This document shows, one piece after another, positions 59-29,617 of a DNA stretch of 64,000 nucleotides. The DNA comes from Bacteroidales bacterium (GTDB lineage Bacteria > Bacteroidota > Bacteroidia > Bacteroidales > F082). Each line of letters opens with the position of its first letter. The stretch's first letter is position 1. The notes under the pieces were generated by a model, which worked only from the letters and a program-made list of their open reading frames with translations, was not told the DNA's origin and did no database searches. The position numbers were made by a program, and so were the translations under genes. The DNA lies in contig JAEFAE010000002.1 in NCBI GenBank assembly GCA_016291135.1, positions 1 through 64,000 on the forward strand. The letters run 5' to 3'.

Positions 59-439
59 TTAATCCGTCACCTCGAACTCGCCGTAATACTCATCCCCGTT
101 GCCGAGGGTGATGGTGACCACGTAGTCGCCCGTGTTGGGGATATAGGCGATGTAGCTGTTGGGGGTCCACAGATCCGTGAGATCGACTGTGCCGCCCGTG
201 GCGGTGGTGACCTCAACCTGGACGTTGCCGAGGTTCTCGGAGAACGTCACCGTGAGCTGATGCCCGTTGATGATGGCCTCAATGGAAGAGGTTCTTGGGA
301 TACCTTGTACGGTTGCCTCTTTAATGACGATGGGACTTGGGCCATCATTTGCAGTAGTGCCGACAGCTCCACTCCATGTCACCGTGAACATGAATGCGAG
401 CATCAGCGTGATTTTTTTGGTTTGTACGGAATGCTTCAT
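59..439 (-). CDS. Small secreted DUF3244-type protein, copy 1
   Basis: A 126-residue exported protein of unknown function. Residues 1-30 form a signal peptide with a hydrophobic core. The rest is one beta-sandwich-like domain with alternating strands, ending in the block 'YYGEFEVTD'. The layout fits the Bacteroidales DUF3244 family, which I recognise by pattern only. It lies downstream of, and on the same strand as, a TPR lipoprotein regulator. The same pair recurs at 22655-24957 and as a remnant at 27721-28064, which suggests the two proteins work together. A promoter-like TATATTTG and a 5' hairpin precede the ATG. The end is certain; the start follows from the signal peptide. Confidence 0.8.
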   Translation of the reverse strand: MKHSVQTKKITLMLAFMFTVTWSGAVGTTANDGPSPIVIKEATVQGIPRTSSIEAIINGHQLTVTFSENLGNVQVEVTTATGGTVDLTDLWTPNSYIAYIPNTGDYVVTITLGNGDEYYGEFEVTD

Positions 440-440
440 A

Positions 441-466
441 GTATCGTTTTTTTAGTTGAACGATAC
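441..466 (-). promoter_or_regulatory. 5' UTR hairpin just upstream of DUF3244 copy 1
   Basis: GTATCGTT and AACGATAC form a perfect 8-bp inverted repeat around a T-rich loop. It sits between the promoter-like box (466-473) and the ATG at 439, so the transcript would begin with a stem-loop. It could stabilise the mRNA or control translation. The structure is seen; the role is inferred. Confidence 0.5.
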
Positions 467-473
467 AAATATA
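466..473 (-). promoter_or_regulatory. Bacteroidota -7 promoter box (TATATTTG)
   Basis: On the minus strand TATATTTG matches the TAnnTTTG -7 consensus of Bacteroidota sigma factors. It lies 27 bases before the ATG of the DUF3244 gene. No convincing -33 TTTG was found. Confidence 0.45.
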
Positions 474-571
474 GCATAACGGACTTTCTATAGAAGGAAC
501 TTTTTAGTAGAAAATAGTCGCCATTTTTTACCTAACAACTTAATTTTCAATAATATATAAAGAAGTTTAAG

Positions 572-2359
572 TTATAATACCCATTCCCTTAGAAACGACT
601 GCGGCGTTTTTTCAGTCTGGAAAGCATTCTTTAGTTTTACGGAACGCTTTTTTATCGTCGAATAATTGCACTGCAACAAGGCAGCAATTTGGACGTCTTC
701 AAAATTTAGCAGGCTCAACAGGCATTGGTTCATTTCGTTTCGAGTGATTTTGGGATAAAGGGATGTCAGCTTACTGCCGAATCCGTCAAAGTGTTTTGAG
801 ACCGCAACCTCCAATTTCAAAAGTTGGTCTTTATCAAGTCGCAGGTATTGATAATCGTTAATATTAGCTCCCCTTTTGATATGCACGCCTTCAAACATTC
901 CCAAAATCGTTTGACAAATGGGCTCGTTCATGAAAACATCGTAGCTGCTCCATGTCGTTTGCCTTTGCTGTGCATCCAGATTTTCCTGTAGCTTTTTGAC
1001 TTCCTCGTTTCTCAAACGAAGTGTCTCGCCTTTTTTCTTAAGTCTTCCGCCCAGGGCTTTCTGTGCCATATCGTGAGCATACTTTTCCTTTGAAAACCGG
1101 GTCTCCGAGAGCTTCTTTTTGTGCTTGATCACATGGTAGAATACAAAGTTGGCCAGAAACAGGAAGACCAGGGTTCCGATAATGAGACCCGTCAGCTTCT
1201 CCTGTAGCTTGATCTTTTGTCGGTGCCTGATGTCGTGGTCTCTTTTGAGATGGCTGCTATATTGTTCAGCTAATTGAGATTTTATCTCGCCAAGATATTC
1301 GTTTTGATTGGCAAAAGGCACTAGATAGTCAGCGTATTCATTGGAATCCAACCCACGACACTTGCCGATTTCCGCAAGCCGTTCTGCAGCCTGTTTCTTG
1401 GAGCCGACGCTTTTGCTCTCCCGAAACACCGTATTGAAGAAATGCCATGCTGAATCATACTGCTGTTCGAGATAATACACTTCGCCAATCACCAGACATC
1501 TTGCAAGGTACTCTTGGGGGCTTTTTGAAAGTGCAAGCATCTCCTGCAATTGTTTCAGCGCACTAGTGGCTTTCCCGCCATTTTTGTATGTCAAAAGGGC
1601 GAGGTGTGTTTCAATGTCCCTGTAGGTCAATTCATTGGTGTCGGTCAAGCATTGCTCCGCACTTTGGTAATAATGCATCGCGCTGTCACACGAATTCATG
1701 ATGTCGTATTGCACTCCAATCTCTTCCAGCAACCATGAAACATGCTGTGGTTTTGCCTCATATAGACTGTAATACAATAATGCTTGTTTTCCAAGATAAA
1801 TGGCCTGCTCGTGCAAATACTGGTCAGAAAACAATTCATTCAAATGAGAGTATGCCAACGCCATGAACTGTGCCTTTTTTCCCGTTAGCTCCTTCTCGCT
1901 GAAACGTTCCTCCATGAGTTCTACCGAACGAAGGTACTCGCGGCAGGCGGGGACCACACTATCCATCTCGTAATAGCCAACGCCGTCTATGTAATGGGAA
2001 CGGGCATTCAGGAACACCAAGTCGGCATCGACACGGGAACCGCTTTCTGCCATTAGGGAATCAAAGTAACCCACCGCAAAAAGCAGTTGGTCTCGGTTGG
2101 TCTGTTCATAATAGTTTTTGTAGAGTAATTCCGAAAGCAACAAGTGGAAGTAATGCCCGTTAAAGTCGTTCAAGCTGTCCATCACGGGACTGTCGGCAAA
2201 GGCCAACAGTTGGGTAAAAGCACTATCGGGTTGGGTCCACAGCAGACTGTCAACAGCGGCCAGCGCAGGATCAGTTGTTAAGCCTTCAGTATCAGGATGA
2301 TGCCAGACACAAGAGGCTAAGGCCATCAAAACCAAGATCATTGTCGCAAACCGTTTCAT
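572..2359 (-). CDS. TPR lipoprotein with transmembrane helix and C-terminal HTH, copy 1
   Basis: A 595-residue protein that looks like a one-piece membrane sensor-regulator. The signal peptide ends in a lipobox (LASC, about residue 17). Residues 40-370 are helical repeats of TPR character, expected in the periplasm. One transmembrane helix lies at about 388-410, followed by a charged coiled coil. The C-terminal 60 residues carry a LuxR-like helix-turn-helix (about 548-573, 'DVQIAALLQCNYSTIKKRS'). TPR plus TM plus HTH proteins are common in Bacteroidales (DUF6377-like). It starts 6 bases after the coiled-coil gene, so they share an operon. A paralogue with the same domains is at 22655-24448. 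DNA binding is inferred. Confidence 0.8.
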   Translation of the reverse strand: MKRFATMILVLMALASCVWHHPDTEGLTTDPALAAVDSLLWTQPDSAFTQLLAFADSPVMDSLNDFNGHYFHLLLSELLYKNYYEQTNRDQLLFAVGYFDSLMAESGSRVDADLVFLNARSHYIDGVGYYEMDSVVPACREYLRSVELMEERFSEKELTGKKAQFMALAYSHLNELFSDQYLHEQAIYLGKQALLYYSLYEAKPQHVSWLLEEIGVQYDIMNSCDSAMHYYQSAEQCLTDTNELTYRDIETHLALLTYKNGGKATSALKQLQEMLALSKSPQEYLARCLVIGEVYYLEQQYDSAWHFFNTVFRESKSVGSKKQAAERLAEIGKCRGLDSNEYADYLVPFANQNEYLGEIKSQLAEQYSSHLKRDHDIRHRQKIKLQEKLTGLIIGTLVFLFLANFVFYHVIKHKKKLSETRFSKEKYAHDMAQKALGGRLKKKGETLRLRNEEVKKLQENLDAQQRQTTWSSYDVFMNEPICQTILGMFEGVHIKRGANINDYQYLRLDKDQLLKLEVAVSKHFDGFGSKLTSLYPKITRNEMNQCLLSLLNFEDVQIAALLQCNYSTIKKRSVKLKNAFQTEKTPQSFLREWVL

Positions 2360-22654: not shown

Positions 22655-24448
22655 ATGAAAATACAAAAACGGATCGGATTATGGATGATCGCCATTTTGG
22701 CAGCCTGTTCATCGTGTTCTGAACCGAAGGGATCCGTGCGTCCAGCCGATACCTCTTTGGTTGCCATCGACGGCCTGCTCTGGACCCAGCCTGACAGCGC
22801 CTTCGCGCAGCTTCAGGGCTTTGCAGAAAACCACGAGGTGGACAGCCTCGACCCCTTCAACCGCCATTACTTCCACCTGCTGCTTTCCGAGCTCTTGTAT
22901 AAGAACGATTATGCCCAAACCAACCGCGACGAGCTGCTTCTGGCGGTGGACTATTACGATTCTCTTGTGGCAGAAGGCGGTTCCCATGCCGATGCCGCCC
23001 TTTTGTTTCTGGATGCCCGCGCCCATTACATCGACGGTGTTGGCTATTATGAGATGGACAGCGTAATCCCGGCATGTGAGCACTACCTGAAGGCGCTGGA
23101 GGTGATGGAGGAACACTTCGACGAGAAGGAACTGGTGGGGAAGAAGGCGCAGTTCATGGCGCTAGCATTCACTCATTTGACAGCATTGTTTTCCGACCAA
23201 TATTTACACGAACAAGCTCTTTATTACGGAAACCAGGCCTTGCATTATTACGATAGGTACGACGCTGAACCTTGGCATGTTTCATGGATGCTGGAAGAGA
23301 CAGGAGTTTATCATGACATTCTCGAAAAGTGGGATAGCGCAGCGTATTATTACCACGAGGCAGAGAAGCTGATGTCTGATACCAACACTTTGATATACAG
23401 GGATATTGAAACACATCTTGCTCATTTATCGTACGAAATGGGGGGTAGTCCTACAGTGGCGATAGAACGGTTGAGCGAGTTGCTTAGTCGCTCGGTAACC
23501 GCCAAAGAGTACTATGCCAGATGTTTGGTCATTGGAGAGATATTATTCCAAGAACAGCAATATGACTCTGCGCAGTTCTATCTAGACAAAGTCTATTTGG
23601 AAACAGAAAGCACAAAAGCCAAGAGTCAAGCTGCCGAATGGCTTGCGATAATCCGGGAACACAAAGGATTGGACCCCGGTGAATACGCAGCATACCTGGT
23701 ACCCCTCGCCAATCAGGAACCCAACCAAAGCGAGACCAAATCTCTTTTGGCTGAGCAGTTTGGCACCCACCTCAGAAATACCCATGAAATCTCTCATCAA
23801 CGAAGAATCAAACGACAGATGAAAACGTCATTGGTGATTGCTGGAGCTTTAGTTAGTCTGTTATTGATCTACTTCATCGCTTTTTACGTAAATAAACGAA
23901 AAAGGAAACACCTTGAAAGCGACATTATTGAAGAGCGCTTTGCCCATCAAGCAAAGCAGAAAGCACTAGGAGCCAAACTTGTGAAGAGGAACGAGGCGTT
24001 ACGCCTGGTAGTTGATGAGAATAAAAAACTACATGCATTATTGGAAGCACTGCGAAGACAGAAGACTCGGGGCTGTTACGACGAATTCATGAACGAGCCT
24101 ATTTGCCAGTCAATCGTAGGAAGGCTAAAAGACCAACCGGTCAAGAGGGTGGCTAAAAACAGAGATTACCCAGAGTTGAAACTTACAGACAGCGAACTTT
24201 CACAACTGGCGGCCGTTGTAGCTAATCATTTCGAAGGGTTCGGCGAATTGTTAACCGCCCTTTATCCCAAGATCACGCGCAACGAGATCAACCAATGCCA
24301 CCTCTGCCTTCTCAACTTGCCAGATGCCCAGATTGCGGCCCTGCTTCACAATGATTATTCCACAGTAAAGAGGCGGTCAAATAAGTTAAGAAAGGTATTT
24401 TCCACGAAAAAAACGCCACAAATGTTCCTCATGGAAAAGGTGTGCTGA
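22655..24448 (+). CDS. TPR lipoprotein with transmembrane helix and C-terminal HTH, copy 2
   Basis: A 597-residue paralogue of the gene at 572-2359, with the same order: lipobox (LAAC, about 15-18), TPR-like helices, one transmembrane helix (about 391-412), coiled coil and C-terminal HTH (about 552-582, 'DAQIAALLHNDYSTVKRRS'). Long blocks are shared, such as 'HYFHLLLSELLYKN', 'HYIDGVGYYEMDSV' and 'LTALYPKITRNE'. Base composition changes inside the gene: the first 500 bases are GC-rich like the core genome and the rest is AT-richer, which suggests a recombination junction near 23160. A DUF3244 gene follows, as at copy 1. It is probably a membrane-bound transcription regulator. Confidence 0.8.
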   Translation: MKIQKRIGLWMIAILAACSSCSEPKGSVRPADTSLVAIDGLLWTQPDSAFAQLQGFAENHEVDSLDPFNRHYFHLLLSELLYKNDYAQTNRDELLLAVDYYDSLVAEGGSHADAALLFLDARAHYIDGVGYYEMDSVIPACEHYLKALEVMEEHFDEKELVGKKAQFMALAFTHLTALFSDQYLHEQALYYGNQALHYYDRYDAEPWHVSWMLEETGVYHDILEKWDSAAYYYHEAEKLMSDTNTLIYRDIETHLAHLSYEMGGSPTVAIERLSELLSRSVTAKEYYARCLVIGEILFQEQQYDSAQFYLDKVYLETESTKAKSQAAEWLAIIREHKGLDPGEYAAYLVPLANQEPNQSETKSLLAEQFGTHLRNTHEISHQRRIKRQMKTSLVIAGALVSLLLIYFIAFYVNKRKRKHLESDIIEERFAHQAKQKALGAKLVKRNEALRLVVDENKKLHALLEALRRQKTRGCYDEFMNEPICQSIVGRLKDQPVKRVAKNRDYPELKLTDSELSQLAAVVANHFEGFGELLTALYPKITRNEINQCHLCLLNLPDAQIAALLHNDYSTVKRRSNKLRKVFSTKKTPQMFLMEKVC

Positions 24449-24579
24449 TCAGATTCTTTTTTTATTTCGCTGTTAATCAAGTTGTTAGTTAAAAACTTGC
24501 AACAATTTGCAACCAAAAAATTGAGTGCATTAATAATCGGTTTTACTATTATTGCATTGTTCAATTAACGATTCACATA

Positions 24580-24957
24580 ATGCATAATTCCCCCAAAAAA
24601 CTATTCGTTTTACTATTCGTGTTGTTGTTATCAACGGTGTGTTGGGGAGCAATCATCACCTGTTCATACGATGAGCAACACCCGATTGTAATCAAAGAGA
24701 GCTCTGTCCAAGGCCCTCCCAAGGGTTCTACCATCCAGGCCTCCATCAACGGCCATGCCCTCACGGTGACGTTCACCGAGAACCTCGGTGACGTACAGAT
24801 CGACATCACCAGCGCCTCGGGCGGTGCGGTAAGCTACGGCCACGTCTGGACCCCCGACAGCTACATCGCCTACATCCCCAACACGGGCAGCTACGTGGTC
24901 ACCATCACCCTCGGCAACGGGGATGTGTATTACGGCGAGTTCGAGGTGACGGATTGA
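24580..24957 (+). CDS. Small secreted DUF3244-type protein, copy 2
   Basis: A 125-residue exported protein with a signal peptide (about 1-23). The N-terminal third is divergent and AT-rich. The C-terminal part from 24731 on is GC-rich and nearly identical at DNA level to 27838-28062. It ends 'YYGEFEVTD' like copy 1. It lies 131 bases after the TPR regulator copy 2, the same pairing as at the start of the window. It may be a secreted partner or target of the regulator; no function is known. Confidence 0.8.
   Translation: MHNSPKKLFVLLFVLLLSTVCWGAIITCSYDEQHPIVIKESSVQGPPKGSTIQASINGHALTVTFTENLGDVQIDITSASGGAVSYGHVWTPDSYIAYIPNTGSYVVTITLGNGDVYYGEFEVTD
24731..24955 (+). repeat. 225-bp direct repeat, first copy
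   Basis: This block is almost identical to 27838-28062, 3107 bases downstream in the same orientation. I count about three differences by eye. It encodes the C-terminal domain of the DUF3244 protein. The near-identity shows a recent duplication or gene conversion. Confidence 0.9.
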
Positions 24958-25051: not shown

Positions 25052-26044
25052 ATGAAAAAAAACATCGCTTTAACAATCGTGTTCTTAGCTACCTTAGTTG
25101 CGGCCTTTATTGCATCTTGCAATAAAGAGAAGCAGGAAATTAATTCAAAAGACGGAATTGTTTCTGAATCAACTGGAGAAGTCGATAACATGGATGACTA
25201 TCTACTTTTGTTCAGGAGCAAATTGAATAGTGCATCTAATTCAAAGGAAACAATCACTTTGGATCAAGCTCAAAGAGATTTAGGCAATCTTTTAAATTTT
25301 GACTTTGGAGACGCCAATTATCCTACTAATGTGTATCAAAATGATACTATTCGCTTGAATCTGCCCTTGGTTGAAGGAGAAATATATATGAAAGACTTGG
25401 CTGAGGCCTATCTAAAATCCAGAGAAGAAGTATCGAAAGCATTTAACAAAGTGGTTTTGTCTGAAAAGAGCGTCTATGCCATTAAATGCTCCATAACCCC
25501 TCAAACAAGAGACGACACTGATGCGGAAATCCAATTAGTTCTCATAACAAGAGGTGTAGCCCCTGGATTGTTGATTAAAACCAGTATTGACACAACGGAT
25601 AATTGGCATGTGGGAGAGCTCATGGGCAAATGTGATGGCACTTGTGTTGGCGATGATCACACAACCATTATCAAAAAAGTGTTTATGAATAACCGTCCGC
25701 CTTTGGACTGTGCCAATGGTAGACTTTATTATACCGACTTTAATAACGATTGTTTCTTTTCAGGAAACTATTTCGAAACAGGTTCTGTATCATGGAATAA
25801 TGGATATATGTTTTGGGATGGAAACTATAATGATTACATGACCCATTGCGTGATTTATCAAGAAATGCAGTACTACTATAACAACTTCTGCCAGGTCATG
25901 GGAGATCGTGTTCCTGAAGGTCATGTTTTTATAACAGTCGATTGTTATATAGACCATACCGTATCTATTGAGGATGCGGAATTTAGCTTTTTTTGCTGTT
26001 ATACAACCGCCAAACCAAATTGCACAAATGAACCTCTTGAATAA
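25052..26044 (+). CDS. Cys-rich lipoprotein of unknown function
   Basis: A 330-residue lipoprotein (lipobox IASC at about 20-23). An N-terminal helical part contains 'TLDQAQRDLGNLLNFDFG'. The C-terminal half is rich in Cys, Tyr and Asn and may be disulfide-bonded. I do not recognise a named family. The DNA is clearly AT-richer than the core genes. Its stop overlaps the start of the next gene by 17 bases, and the DUF3244 gene lies 94 bases upstream, so the three are likely expressed together. The surface location is inferred. Confidence 0.7.
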   Translation: MKKNIALTIVFLATLVAAFIASCNKEKQEINSKDGIVSESTGEVDNMDDYLLLFRSKLNSASNSKETITLDQAQRDLGNLLNFDFGDANYPTNVYQNDTIRLNLPLVEGEIYMKDLAEAYLKSREEVSKAFNKVVLSEKSVYAIKCSITPQTRDDTDAEIQLVLITRGVAPGLLIKTSIDTTDNWHVGELMGKCDGTCVGDDHTTIIKKVFMNNRPPLDCANGRLYYTDFNNDCFFSGNYFETGSVSWNNGYMFWDGNYNDYMTHCVIYQEMQYYYNNFCQVMGDRVPEGHVFITVDCYIDHTVSIEDAEFSFFCCYTTAKPNCTNEPLE

Positions 26045-27560
26045 TAAAGGGTTATTCTTGCTCTTGCCCGCACTGCTTTTCTTGTTGTTTCCAGCAACAG
26101 CCCAAGAAAAAGGCTTTTTCCATTTGTATGAAAGGCCGGACAGATCTTTTATGGCCAGCTCAGCAGTCGAAACATCCGAAGGAAACATGATAGTAGCCTT
26201 GTTTTTTTATGATGGGCCGGGATCACTAGCCTTGCTGTCTGAGGATGGAGCATTGGTTAAAGAAACACTCATCAATGACAATGGGTGTCGATCAGGCATA
26301 GAACACCTGTTTCAGGATCCTGATCAGCCTGGATTATTCTATGGAATTGGAGAAATAGGTGATCCCCTAAATCAAACTTTTTTGCCATATATCATTCATT
26401 TTGACGACGAATTGAACATCTTGTTAAGGAAAGAAGTGAAGCTACCGGATGGATACAAAACAATACGAATATCGAGGACAGTGCTCACCAAAAACGGAAA
26501 ATTCCTGTATGCAGGATCTCTTGATGAGGAGAACGACTATCATCGGCTTTACATTTTGATTTCACTTGATGGGGAAGTTGAAGCCATGGCAGAAATAGAT
26601 TCAGATGCAGAATATCAAACACGGATTGATGCTATTTGCGAATCACCTGTTAGCGATCTTTATTTTGAATACCGAAATTCATATAACGACCTTGGACAGT
26701 ATGTAAAACGTTTGTTTATATTTGACGATGGGTTTGTATTCAATCCGATAAACGAGTATCACATCATAGACTTTTGGGAACACGACACGCTTCACTCTGT
26801 TTTCTTTACTCCATCCGCCAATTCCACCATGACCTTTTTAGATGACACAACCTTGCTGTTCTCAGATCGAATACATGAAAAGTGGAGTGCCCCCAACGGT
26901 TCAGTATACTCAACAGATCATTCAGCATTTCTATTCACAACCGATCTACAAGGCAATATACAGGAGCACTATGTGGATGGAAGCGGAAACGACACGCTGG
27001 ACTATCCACTTCACTTTAATGCCGTTGCTAAAACGAGCGGAAACGTCCCTGAAAAGACCTGTATCTTTCATGGTTGTTATGGATTCTTTTCCCCGCCTCG
27101 GCCTAACCATATAACATTGACAAAAACGGATTGTCATCTCAATCCGCTCTGGAAACACTCCTATTCTTGTAAAGGCAAGTATTTAACGGCTATCAACATA
27201 TTGACAACCAATGACGGGGGATGCATTATGGTAGGAGGTGCCATGACCTTGGAAAACGGGCATTATGATTGGTTTGCACTCAAGGTCAATCCCGAAGGTC
27301 TGGTGGGGTCTGAAGAAATCATTGTAAATGATCTTGTTATTTTCTATCCCAACCCCGTCACTGATGCATTGCAGCTTCATTGTCCGCCCGGAACAAAACC
27401 TGTTCGAGTGGAGCTCTACGACGTGGAAGGCCGGCAGGTGCTGACGCAACAGACTGATCTCGAACGGATCGGCATGGAAGGTTTCTCACCCGGCCTTTAC
27501 ACCCTGCGCGTTATCTTGGACGACGGTACCGTTTATACCGACAAGCTCGTCAAGCAATAA
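26028..27560 (+). CDS. T9SS-sorted secreted protein of unknown function
   Basis: The ORF track begins at 25968. I place the start at ATG 26028, where a clean signal peptide begins ('LLLPALLFLLFPATAQ'), giving 510 residues. The central part (about 30-420) is beta-rich with repeated Asp/Gly turns and looks like a propeller. The last 75 residues are a type A T9SS sorting domain, starting 'VIFYPNPVTD' and ending 'GLYTLRVILDDG...KLVKQ'. It should be exported by the type IX system and fixed to the surface or released. Expression is probably coupled to the upstream lipoprotein. Confidence 0.8.
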   Translation: MNLLNNKGLFLLLPALLFLLFPATAQEKGFFHLYERPDRSFMASSAVETSEGNMIVALFFYDGPGSLALLSEDGALVKETLINDNGCRSGIEHLFQDPDQPGLFYGIGEIGDPLNQTFLPYIIHFDDELNILLRKEVKLPDGYKTIRISRTVLTKNGKFLYAGSLDEENDYHRLYILISLDGEVEAMAEIDSDAEYQTRIDAICESPVSDLYFEYRNSYNDLGQYVKRLFIFDDGFVFNPINEYHIIDFWEHDTLHSVFFTPSANSTMTFLDDTTLLFSDRIHEKWSAPNGSVYSTDHSAFLFTTDLQGNIQEHYVDGSGNDTLDYPLHFNAVAKTSGNVPEKTCIFHGCYGFFSPPRPNHITLTKTDCHLNPLWKHSYSCKGKYLTAINILTTNDGGCIMVGGAMTLENGHYDWFALKVNPEGLVGSEEIIVNDLVIFYPNPVTDALQLHCPPGTKPVRVELYDVEGRQVLTQQTDLERIGMEGFSPGLYTLRVILDDGTVYTDKLVKQ

Positions 27561-27720: not shown

Positions 27721-28064
27721 ATGGAAAAACCGATTATCTTTGCCGAAAACAACGAGGTGGATAGTCTGAACGACTTCAATGGGCATTACTTCCACCTGTT
27801 GCTTTCAGAGTTGCTCTACAAGAACTACTAAGCTCTTCCATCCAGGCCTCCATCAACGGCCACGTCCTCACGGTGACGTTCACCGAGAACCTCGGTGACG
27901 TACAGATCGACATCACCAGCGCCTCGGGCGGTGCGGTAAGCTACGGCCACGTCTGGACCCCCGACAGCTACATCGCCTACATCCCCAACACGGGCAGCTA
28001 CGTGGTCACCATCACCCTCGGCAACGGGGATGAGTATTACGGCGAGTTCGAGGTGACGGATTAA
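27721..28064 (+). pseudogene. Collapsed third TPR-regulator/DUF3244 cassette
   Basis: Positions 27721-27831 encode 36 residues, 'MEKPIIFAENNEVDSLND' and onward to a stop. They match residues about 50-85 of the TPR regulators. The stop is directly followed by the C-terminal DUF3244 domain (27831-28064), with no signal peptide or N-terminus. About 1.7 kb has been lost at the junction. The regulator piece mixes residues typical of copy 1 ('SLNDFNGHYF') and copy 2 ('FAEN.EVDSL'). The 63-residue ORF at 27873 in the track is part of this remnant and probably not a gene. Confidence 0.85.
27838..28062 (+). repeat. 225-bp direct repeat, second copy
   Basis: Nearly identical to 24731-24955 (offset 3107). 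Differences seen include ccatgccctc/ccacgtcctc and gatgtg/gatgag, and the stop codon changes from TGA to TAA. Recombination between the two copies would delete the lipoprotein and the T9SS gene between them. Confidence 0.9.
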
Positions 28065-28179: not shown

Positions 28180-28273
28180 CCATTGTCACCTTTTGACAGA
28201 CGAAAGAAAACAACATAACTTTGCAGATAAACGATTTCAACAACGATTACAAACCCATAAAACAATAGGAACC

Positions 28274-29617
28274 ATGAAAAGACACGCTATCATAACAACC
28301 CTTCTCCTCCTGCTACTGGTTACAGAAATGGTGAAGGCTCAACAATGGAGGGAACTACCTACGGGGGTCACCGAAGACCTCTATGATGTCTGCTGCATCG
28401 ACACCAACACAGTTTTCGCGTGTGGACAGAACGGAGTGATTTTGAAGACCACCGATGGCGGGGAAACGTGGGAGGAGAAATACCGCCAACCAGGCTGCCA
28501 AATGACCAAGATGTATTTTATTAATCCACAGGTTGGTTATGTTTTTTGTGATTCGAACATTTCCATCTCCTCCCATACATGGTCGCTGATGAAAACCGAA
28601 GACGGAGGGGAGAGTTGGCAAAGTACAGGAACGCCCCAAAACAGTAGTTTCGTTTATCTTGATGACTGGAATGCTCTTACCAATCGATATGTCTGTAGTG
28701 AGATGGCTTTTAAAGGCACTGATACCATATTTGTAGCTATTTCGCTCGACGGACTATACAGAAGTCTGGATGGCGGCGAAAGTTTTGAAATAATACCCAT
28801 AGAGGGTTTTGCGGGTTCCGAAGTGCGCGGTTTCTATCTTGAGGATAATATAGGATACCTCTTATGGTGGAACAGAAAATATTACACAGCCGGCATTGCC
28901 AAGACTGAAGACGGTGGGGGGAGTTGGCATCGGATTGACTCTGATTTAGGAATAACAAGCTCCATTATTTATTTTGCCCATTTCCAAGACAAAAACAATC
29001 TACGGGTTTTCGGCTGGTTTAACGTCGGCCCTTACGACTTTTCTTTGTTGGACACCCATGATGGTTTTCAAACATTTGATATGAATGGCGTGGAATCTGG
29101 TCTTACTTGGTGGTACGATGTTCTCTATGAAGAGTATCGAAAATGTCACTTCACAGACCGAAATCATGGAATGGCATTCTATGTTGGAAAAGACATGGTT
29201 GACTTGTGGGATGTTTCCTACACAGAGGACAATGGCTCTTCGTGGACATCTTATTCCCATACTGCCTTTCCGAATTACCCGGATCGACTGTATGACGTTG
29301 ATGGAATCGACACGGTGTTTTTCATTTCTGGTGAAAACGGACTCGTCGCCAAGAATCGGCAATTCACTTTGATGGACAATGTTGAGCAAGATGAATCCAC
29401 GGTTAGCGTTTATCCCAATCCCATGGTTGACAAGCTGTTTGTGAAATGCGAGGAAGAATCGGATGTGACACTGTTTTCCAGCACCGGCCAGGTGTTGTAT
29501 GAAAAAAGGATCGTTTCCGAAACCATTGATGTAAGCGGTCTCGAACCCGGGTTGTATCTGATACGAATCGCTAATTCTGATGGGATCTCCCATGTCAAGA
29601 AACTGATCAAGCAATGA
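28274..29617 (+). CDS. T9SS-sorted YCF48-like beta-propeller protein
   Basis: I start at ATG 28274 (447 residues), which opens a signal peptide ending 'MVKAQQ'; the ORF track start at 28193 adds 27 unlikely residues. The body has BNR/Asp-box-like repeats ('KTTDGGETWEE', 'KTEDGGESW', 'KTEDGGGSW', 'YTEDNGSSW') as in YCF48/Hcf136-type propellers. The C-terminus is a type A T9SS sorting domain ('VSVYPNPMVDKLF' to 'KKLIKQ'). It is expected at the cell surface. The AT-rich DNA and the remnants around it suggest an accessory gene. Confidence 0.85.
   Translation: MKRHAIITTLLLLLLVTEMVKAQQWRELPTGVTEDLYDVCCIDTNTVFACGQNGVILKTTDGGETWEEKYRQPGCQMTKMYFINPQVGYVFCDSNISISSHTWSLMKTEDGGESWQSTGTPQNSSFVYLDDWNALTNRYVCSEMAFKGTDTIFVAISLDGLYRSLDGGESFEIIPIEGFAGSEVRGFYLEDNIGYLLWWNRKYYTAGIAKTEDGGGSWHRIDSDLGITSSIIYFAHFQDKNNLRVFGWFNVGPYDFSLLDTHDGFQTFDMNGVESGLTWWYDVLYEEYRKCHFTDRNHGMAFYVGKDMVDLWDVSYTEDNGSSWTSYSHTAFPNYPDRLYDVDGIDTVFFISGENGLVAKNRQFTLMDNVEQDESTVSVYPNPMVDKLFVKCEEESDVTLFSSTGQVLYEKRIVSETIDVSGLEPGLYLIRIANSDGISHVKKLIKQ

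Follow-up and report, generated by a model that had tools for sequence, protein, structure and literature searches.

A gene for a membrane regulator and a gene for a small exported DUF3244 protein were found as a recurring cassette in the window (the whole stretch of Bacteroidales DNA that was analyzed, 64,000 nucleotides in length), and the two probably constitute, with a repeat operator lying in the gap between them, a self-contained module in which the membrane one-component regulator has DUF3244 as the dedicated partner of its TPR domain in a feedback or co-sensing role. Within this reading, sequence gives good support to the linkage and to the repeat operator, and an activator role for the regulator and contact between DUF3244 and the TPR domain are likely.

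The first pair consists of a membrane regulator of 597 aa (22655..24448, + strand) and a DUF3244 protein of 125 aa (24580..24957, +) with a signal peptide and an Ig-like beta sandwich (residues ~34-123), and the second, on the - strand, of a regulator of 595 aa (572..2359) with ~57% identity to the first and a DUF3244 protein of 126 aa (59..439). The DUF3244 profile (PF11589, cut-off 25 bits) gave 28.2 and 26.0 bits for these two proteins. Downstream of the first pair, and probably in the same operon, are genes for a lipoprotein whose family was not recognised (25052..26044, +) and an exported protein that carries a type IX sorting domain (26031..27560, +). Beyond them lies a regulator N-terminal remnant (27739..27846, +) that is 75% identical to regulator residues 56-91, ends in TAA and is deletion-joined through that codon to a DUF3244 3'-half remnant (27831..28064, +), in which the 3' half of the gene occupies 27831-28055 and the domain of which narrowly exceeded the cut-off (25.3 bits). 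Because this deletion fusion unites part of a regulator with a DUF3244 3' half, a third cassette of the same gene order must formerly have been present; it is directly followed by a gene for a BNR/YCF48-like protein that is exported and also bears a type IX sorting domain (28268..29617, +). Two pairs and a remnant at these places had been reported in the first-pass annotation, and the ORFs were found as described there.

The AlphaFold model of the window regulator (pLDDT 91.3) comprised TPR helices at residues 33-353, an unbroken helix at 355-479 holding the membrane segment, and a helical HTH domain at 482-596. A single strong hydrophobic helix (~391-409) was predicted ahead of the C-terminal HTH, and the predicted signal peptide ends in a lipobox-like Cys that the first-pass annotation had missed; such a Cys was present in 54/54 paired regulators examined (read by eye, the automatic pattern having missed a few). 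The earlier description of a periplasmic TPR domain, one membrane helix and a cytoplasmic HTH is backed by these predictions. In a few members of the wider family, the C terminus matched LuxR-type (GerE), sigma-70 region 4 and DUF6377 profiles. The NCBIfam model NF053779 ('BT3442 family') was matched by 37/41 regulators; its equivalog cut-off of 940 bits was reached neither by the window regulator (16.4 bits) nor by the best among the matches listed (337.6), and by these scores the window regulator is a wider relative of the BT3442 family, not an equivalog.

A likeness to the peptide receptors of the RRNPP type (NprR, Rap, PlcR) had also been put forward, and of this comparison only the generic fold stood. 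The TPR superhelix is shared and NprR and Rap were among the structural matches; general TPR proteins match the regulator too, and the superhelix is common to TPR proteins of every kind. The differences concern the order of the domains, membrane anchoring, HTH type and ligand type: the HTH, where present, is N-terminal in RRNPP proteins, whereas in the window regulator it (482-596) follows the TPR domain (33-353); RRNPP proteins are cytoplasmic and have no membrane segment, whereas the window regulator has the lipobox Cys and the strong hydrophobic helix; and their ligand is a short peptide, whereas the candidate partner here is a folded domain of ~90 residues. The regulator is not a member of the RRNPP family.

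The model of the window DUF3244 protein (pLDDT 91.3) showed the Ig-like beta sandwich known from solved structures of its family, with matches to 3d33 (Z 12.6, rmsd 2.0, 88 aligned), 3sd2 (Z 10.8) and 4g5a (Z 9.4). The nearest fold after the family's own was that of the type IX C-terminal sorting domains (RemA, RgpB, RemZ; Z 8.4-9.2), from which the window protein differs in being a standalone exported protein; the Por secretion tail profile did not match it in either Pfam or NCBIfam. The fold bears on the idea that DUF3244 acts as a protease inhibitor and is expressed together with exported proteases, a role suggested for the staphostatin-like BtiZ (BT2221). BT2221 has been called a staphostatin-like inhibitor beside C10 proteases (PMC3462683) and, elsewhere, a DUF3244 protein (PMC10434189), but the solved structures of DUF3244 proteins show Ig-like sandwiches, whereas staphostatins are lipocalin-like by the title of a work cited in PMC3462683, and no C10 protease was found among the downstream genes examined (a partial check in which some of them were profiled). 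An inhibitor function was deemed most improbable.

Linkage was surveyed across the order. Only standalone ORFs were counted, because most order-wide PF11589 hits fell in large ORFs, on their type IX sorting domains; taking all PF11589 hits as DUF3244 was rejected, and this cross-matching of the profile to sorting domains of large proteins can mislead annotation. In the source genome, which is an incomplete assembly (83%), 10/10 DUF3244-like genes (8 profile hits and 2 found by eye, with one remnant and one regulator split into two reading frames included) follow a regulator on the same strand. In other Bacteroidales, ~97/101 testable standalone DUF3244 copies adjoin a protein with a lipobox, TPR domain, membrane helix and HTH, these loci forming two sets that are not independent draws because one family (that of G105) dominates both. 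The first set contained 56 standalone loci, 4 of which were cut by contig ends, and the regulator was adjacent in 50 of the remaining 52 (one divergent, a few truncated, and one with an intervening ORF), the exceptions being a locus disrupted by an insertion sequence (L123) and a fragment (L131). In the replication set, for which genomes not used before were taken once the hypothesis was fixed, the regulator was adjacent in 47/53 loci, or 47/49 when three contig-end loci and one large ORF were left aside. The pairing is far beyond chance and is general across gut and environmental Bacteroidales. The recurring cassette claimed earlier was thus confirmed by the very survey of co-occurrence that had been suggested as a check on it, and the two families did not prove to be usually unlinked elsewhere.

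Several individual loci were recorded in the course of the survey. At L123, a repeated 302-aa ORF and an ORF resembling a reverse transcriptase flank DUF3244, and a regulator lies 2.2 kb downstream. In the source genome, the regulator of the C24 cassette occupies two overlapping frames (L026:5072-6684, +), reflecting a frameshift or an assembly error, and the DUF3244 gene, repeat operator and cargo of that cassette look intact. A 298-aa ORF with a DUF3244-like start (L188:2308-3204, +) may be a fusion with the next lipoprotein and is apparently another deletion product. Cassettes stand at the ends of source-genome contigs C44 (start), C3 (both ends) and C39 (start), so the assembly was probably interrupted by repeats within or beside them, and further copies may be missing. 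A scan of wider genome contigs returned two rumen Bacteroidales fragments only.

The gap between regulator and DUF3244 gene (median 145 bp) was found to carry a promoter box and direct repeats. The Bacteroidota -7 box TAnnTTTG was present in 34/54 gaps of the first set (7.4 expected from mononucleotide shuffles) and in 39/46 gaps of the replication set, where shuffles that preserve dinucleotides predicted 9.3. Perfect direct repeats of 8 bp with a 10-12 bp period were found in 16/52 gaps, while shuffles of the latter kind gave 0.35 and the control flanks had none (0/51 before the regulator and 0/49 after DUF3244); on replication they were found in 7/46 gaps (0.07 expected) and again in no control flank (0/42 and 0/46). 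When spacings up to 35 bp were scanned, the signal lay almost only at 10-12 and 20-22 bp, which correspond to one and two helical turns. A 7-of-8 repeat was absent from about 36% of first-set gaps and 59% of second-set gaps, so that operators there would be weak, longer-spaced or different. In the window, the candidate operator of the first pair (24497..24513, +) is the tandem repeat TTGCAAC-AAT-TTGCAAC with a 10 bp period, followed by a candidate -7 box TATTATTG (24547..24554, +) that was read by eye and matches TAnnTTTG at 7/8 positions, with one mismatch; that of the second pair, CGACTATTTTCTAC (507..520, -), is an imperfect 10-bp repeat with a candidate -7 box TATATTTG at 466..473 (-). The repeat often starts 47-63 bp upstream of the -7 box, and 50 bp separate the two starts in the first window pair. 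This position would suit an activator, and repressor action would fit the operator as well.

The repeat words vary by pair (TGTCAAC, TGTGAACG, TTTGTCCA, GCGAACAAAA, CCGTACCATT and others), and their similarity tracked that of the HTH with TPR controlled (0.27; 0/2000 permutations) and scarcely that of the TPR domain with HTH controlled (0.03), both for an operator set of n=28 that takes in a few operators added by hand. The repeats are probably the regulator's own operator ahead of DUF3244, because they are absent from the control flanks and covary with the HTH, not with the TPR domain. The window operator TTGCAACAATTTGCAAC (24497-24513) is the sole exact match to TTGCAACNNNTTGCAAC in the source genome. 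A relaxed motif, CRACWATTTKCWAC, was built from four pairs and finds those four promoters (by construction) and one orphan site; the notion of a wholly private operator for each paralogous pair of the source genome was softened on this account, and cross-regulation among the four pairs that share the motif is possible. An orphan copy of the window operator, together with the intergenic sequence around it (source-genome C15:7696-7712; L214, L217), lies near an RHS-like gene, no regulator or DUF3244 was detected around it, and it is probably what is left of a lost cassette.

DUF3244 itself covaried with the other end of the regulator. Its similarity followed that of the TPR domain given the HTH (0.40) far more than that of the HTH given the TPR domain (0.09; n=53), a contrast with which length-matched columns and a thinned first set agreed, and the new loci gave 0.46 and 0.10; in the thinned replication set the contrast was smaller (0.35 vs 0.19) and the plain correlations were nearly equal. 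Shared ancestry partly remains in all of these values, and the permutations test exchangeability, not binding. Were linkage alone responsible, DUF3244 should go with the HTH no less than with the TPR domain, because the HTH is encoded adjacent to it and the TPR domain farther away. The covariation is as expected for binding partners and, like the operator ahead of DUF3244, lends indirect support to a sensor-partner relation, in which contact is likely. A mapping of the covariation to the C-terminal half of the TPR domain was dropped, since the first set gave 0.36 vs 0.08 and the second only 0.36 vs 0.26.

This covariation also counts against an explanation in which DUF3244 is merely the first exported product of the operon and the regulator senses misfolded or untransported cargo, a peptide or a glycan without binding DUF3244. 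That explanation draws on TPR-membrane-HTH regulators that have no DUF3244 and stand directly before other exported-protein genes (L029, L187, L194, L203, L204 and others), several of them with similar 10-11 bp tandem repeats. The regulator/DUF3244 pair is by this token one branch of a larger, undescribed regulator class, which as a whole does not require DUF3244. Against the explanation, DUF3244 remains the first gene while the genes behind it change: in some loci these encode LANC-like proteins, radical SAM maturases, a TIGR04149 RiPP precursor and peptidase-ABC exporters, in many loci lipoproteins with outer-membrane proteins, and in the window's genome type IX cargo, and in B. thetaiotaomicron BT_3442/BT_3441 head a MACPF cluster (PMC2954219). 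Because the module is constant while the cargo changes, DUF3244 probably belongs to the regulator rather than to the cargo, and the first-product explanation was considered rather unlikely. In an iron study, BT3221-BT3223 (DUF3244, DUF4848 and a hypothetical protein) shifted together by 10 to 15-fold (PMC10434189).

Within the source genome, five paralogous cassettes are 85-92% identical in DNA over the DUF3244 3' half, with ~50% identity in mid-cassette and a further drop past the stop codon. Fourfold sites were 76-90% identical in the 3' half, compared with 18-57% over the regulator, and this homogenisation of fourfold sites indicates recent gene conversion. The homogenised part lies at 24771-24957 in the window, the 5' half of DUF3244 being diverged between copies, and a congeneric genome (L066/L067) shows the same 3'-half homogenisation with a different sequence of its own. 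These data bear on the idea of the first-pass annotation that DUF3244 could serve as a secreted signal by which cells sense themselves or their neighbours. The protein is exported, diverse in sequence between paralogous pairs and paired with a periplasmic sensor, as such a signal might be; however, its exit from the cell and re-entry into the periplasm are hypothetical, a folded domain of 90 residues exceeds the ligands of TPR pheromone receptors, and its 3' half is homogenised between source-genome copies. Cell-to-cell signalling by DUF3244 is possible, a feedback or co-sensor role fits at least as well, and the secreted-signal idea was judged quite improbable. The more general proposal of a Bacteroidales-wide class, in which the exported Ig-like protein would be the cognate ligand of a TPR regulator that senses the export state or density of its own cell or its neighbours through a protein instead of a peptide, and switches on antagonistic products such as RiPPs and pore-forming proteins, was held to be improbable.

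In the preferred reading, that of a self-contained module, the regulator would be a membrane-integrated one-component transcription factor with a lipid-anchored TPR domain in the periplasm, and one long helix would relay the signal across the membrane to the C-terminal HTH. The HTH probably binds the tandem repeats, which lie one helical turn apart and ~50 bp upstream of the next promoter's -7 box, and is probably an activator of that promoter, the first gene of which encodes the exported DUF3244 Ig-like protein. As the dedicated partner of the TPR sensor, which it would bind, DUF3244 may report or feed back the state of whichever exported product the genes farther downstream encode.

Transcription factors that span the membrane, have their sensor in the periplasm and are accompanied by a small periplasmic partner encoded by the neighbouring gene are known from ToxR/ToxS, TcpP/TcpH and VtrA/VtrC. 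The pair is best read as ToxR/ToxS-like in logic, by analogy, although those systems have an N-terminal DNA-binding domain (the opposite topology), unrelated domains and hosts in another phylum. SusR-like regulators of Bacteroides share the periplasmic sensor, membrane helix and cytoplasmic C-terminal HTH, all three being predicted here, and also have predicted direct-repeat operators, but with half-sites 67 or 77 bp apart and at sugar-use genes (PMC3878776), whereas the repeats of the pair, within a scan that reached 35 bp, are 10-12 or 20-22 bp apart and lie ahead of DUF3244. Only 5/41 regulators were matched, weakly, by the NCBIfam SusR model, and its cut-off of 480 bits was not reached (22.1 bits for the best among the matches listed). 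The same kind of pair, at the head of an exported-protein cluster, is BT_3442/BT_3441, noted as neighbours in a 2010 paper that described BT_3441 as homologous to 3d33, a DUF3244 structure, and called the two a TPR protein and an Ig-fold protein only, proposing no regulator, operator or partner role (PMC2954219). No literature on the regulator class or on both proteins acting together was found among open-licence papers; what appears to be new here is the candidate repeat operator in the gap, together with the covariation of operator with HTH and of DUF3244 with TPR.

The module gives a testable role to two unexplained families, the DUF3244 and the TPR-membrane-HTH proteins, and, for many pairs, a readable DNA operator from which targets become predictable from sequence. 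It also offers a handle on how Bacteroidales control bacteriocin-like RiPPs, MACPF proteins, surface lipoproteins and type IX cargo, the regulation of which is largely unknown, and the finding that operons for such dissimilar exported products begin with the pair points to a widespread and as yet undescribed control of their release.
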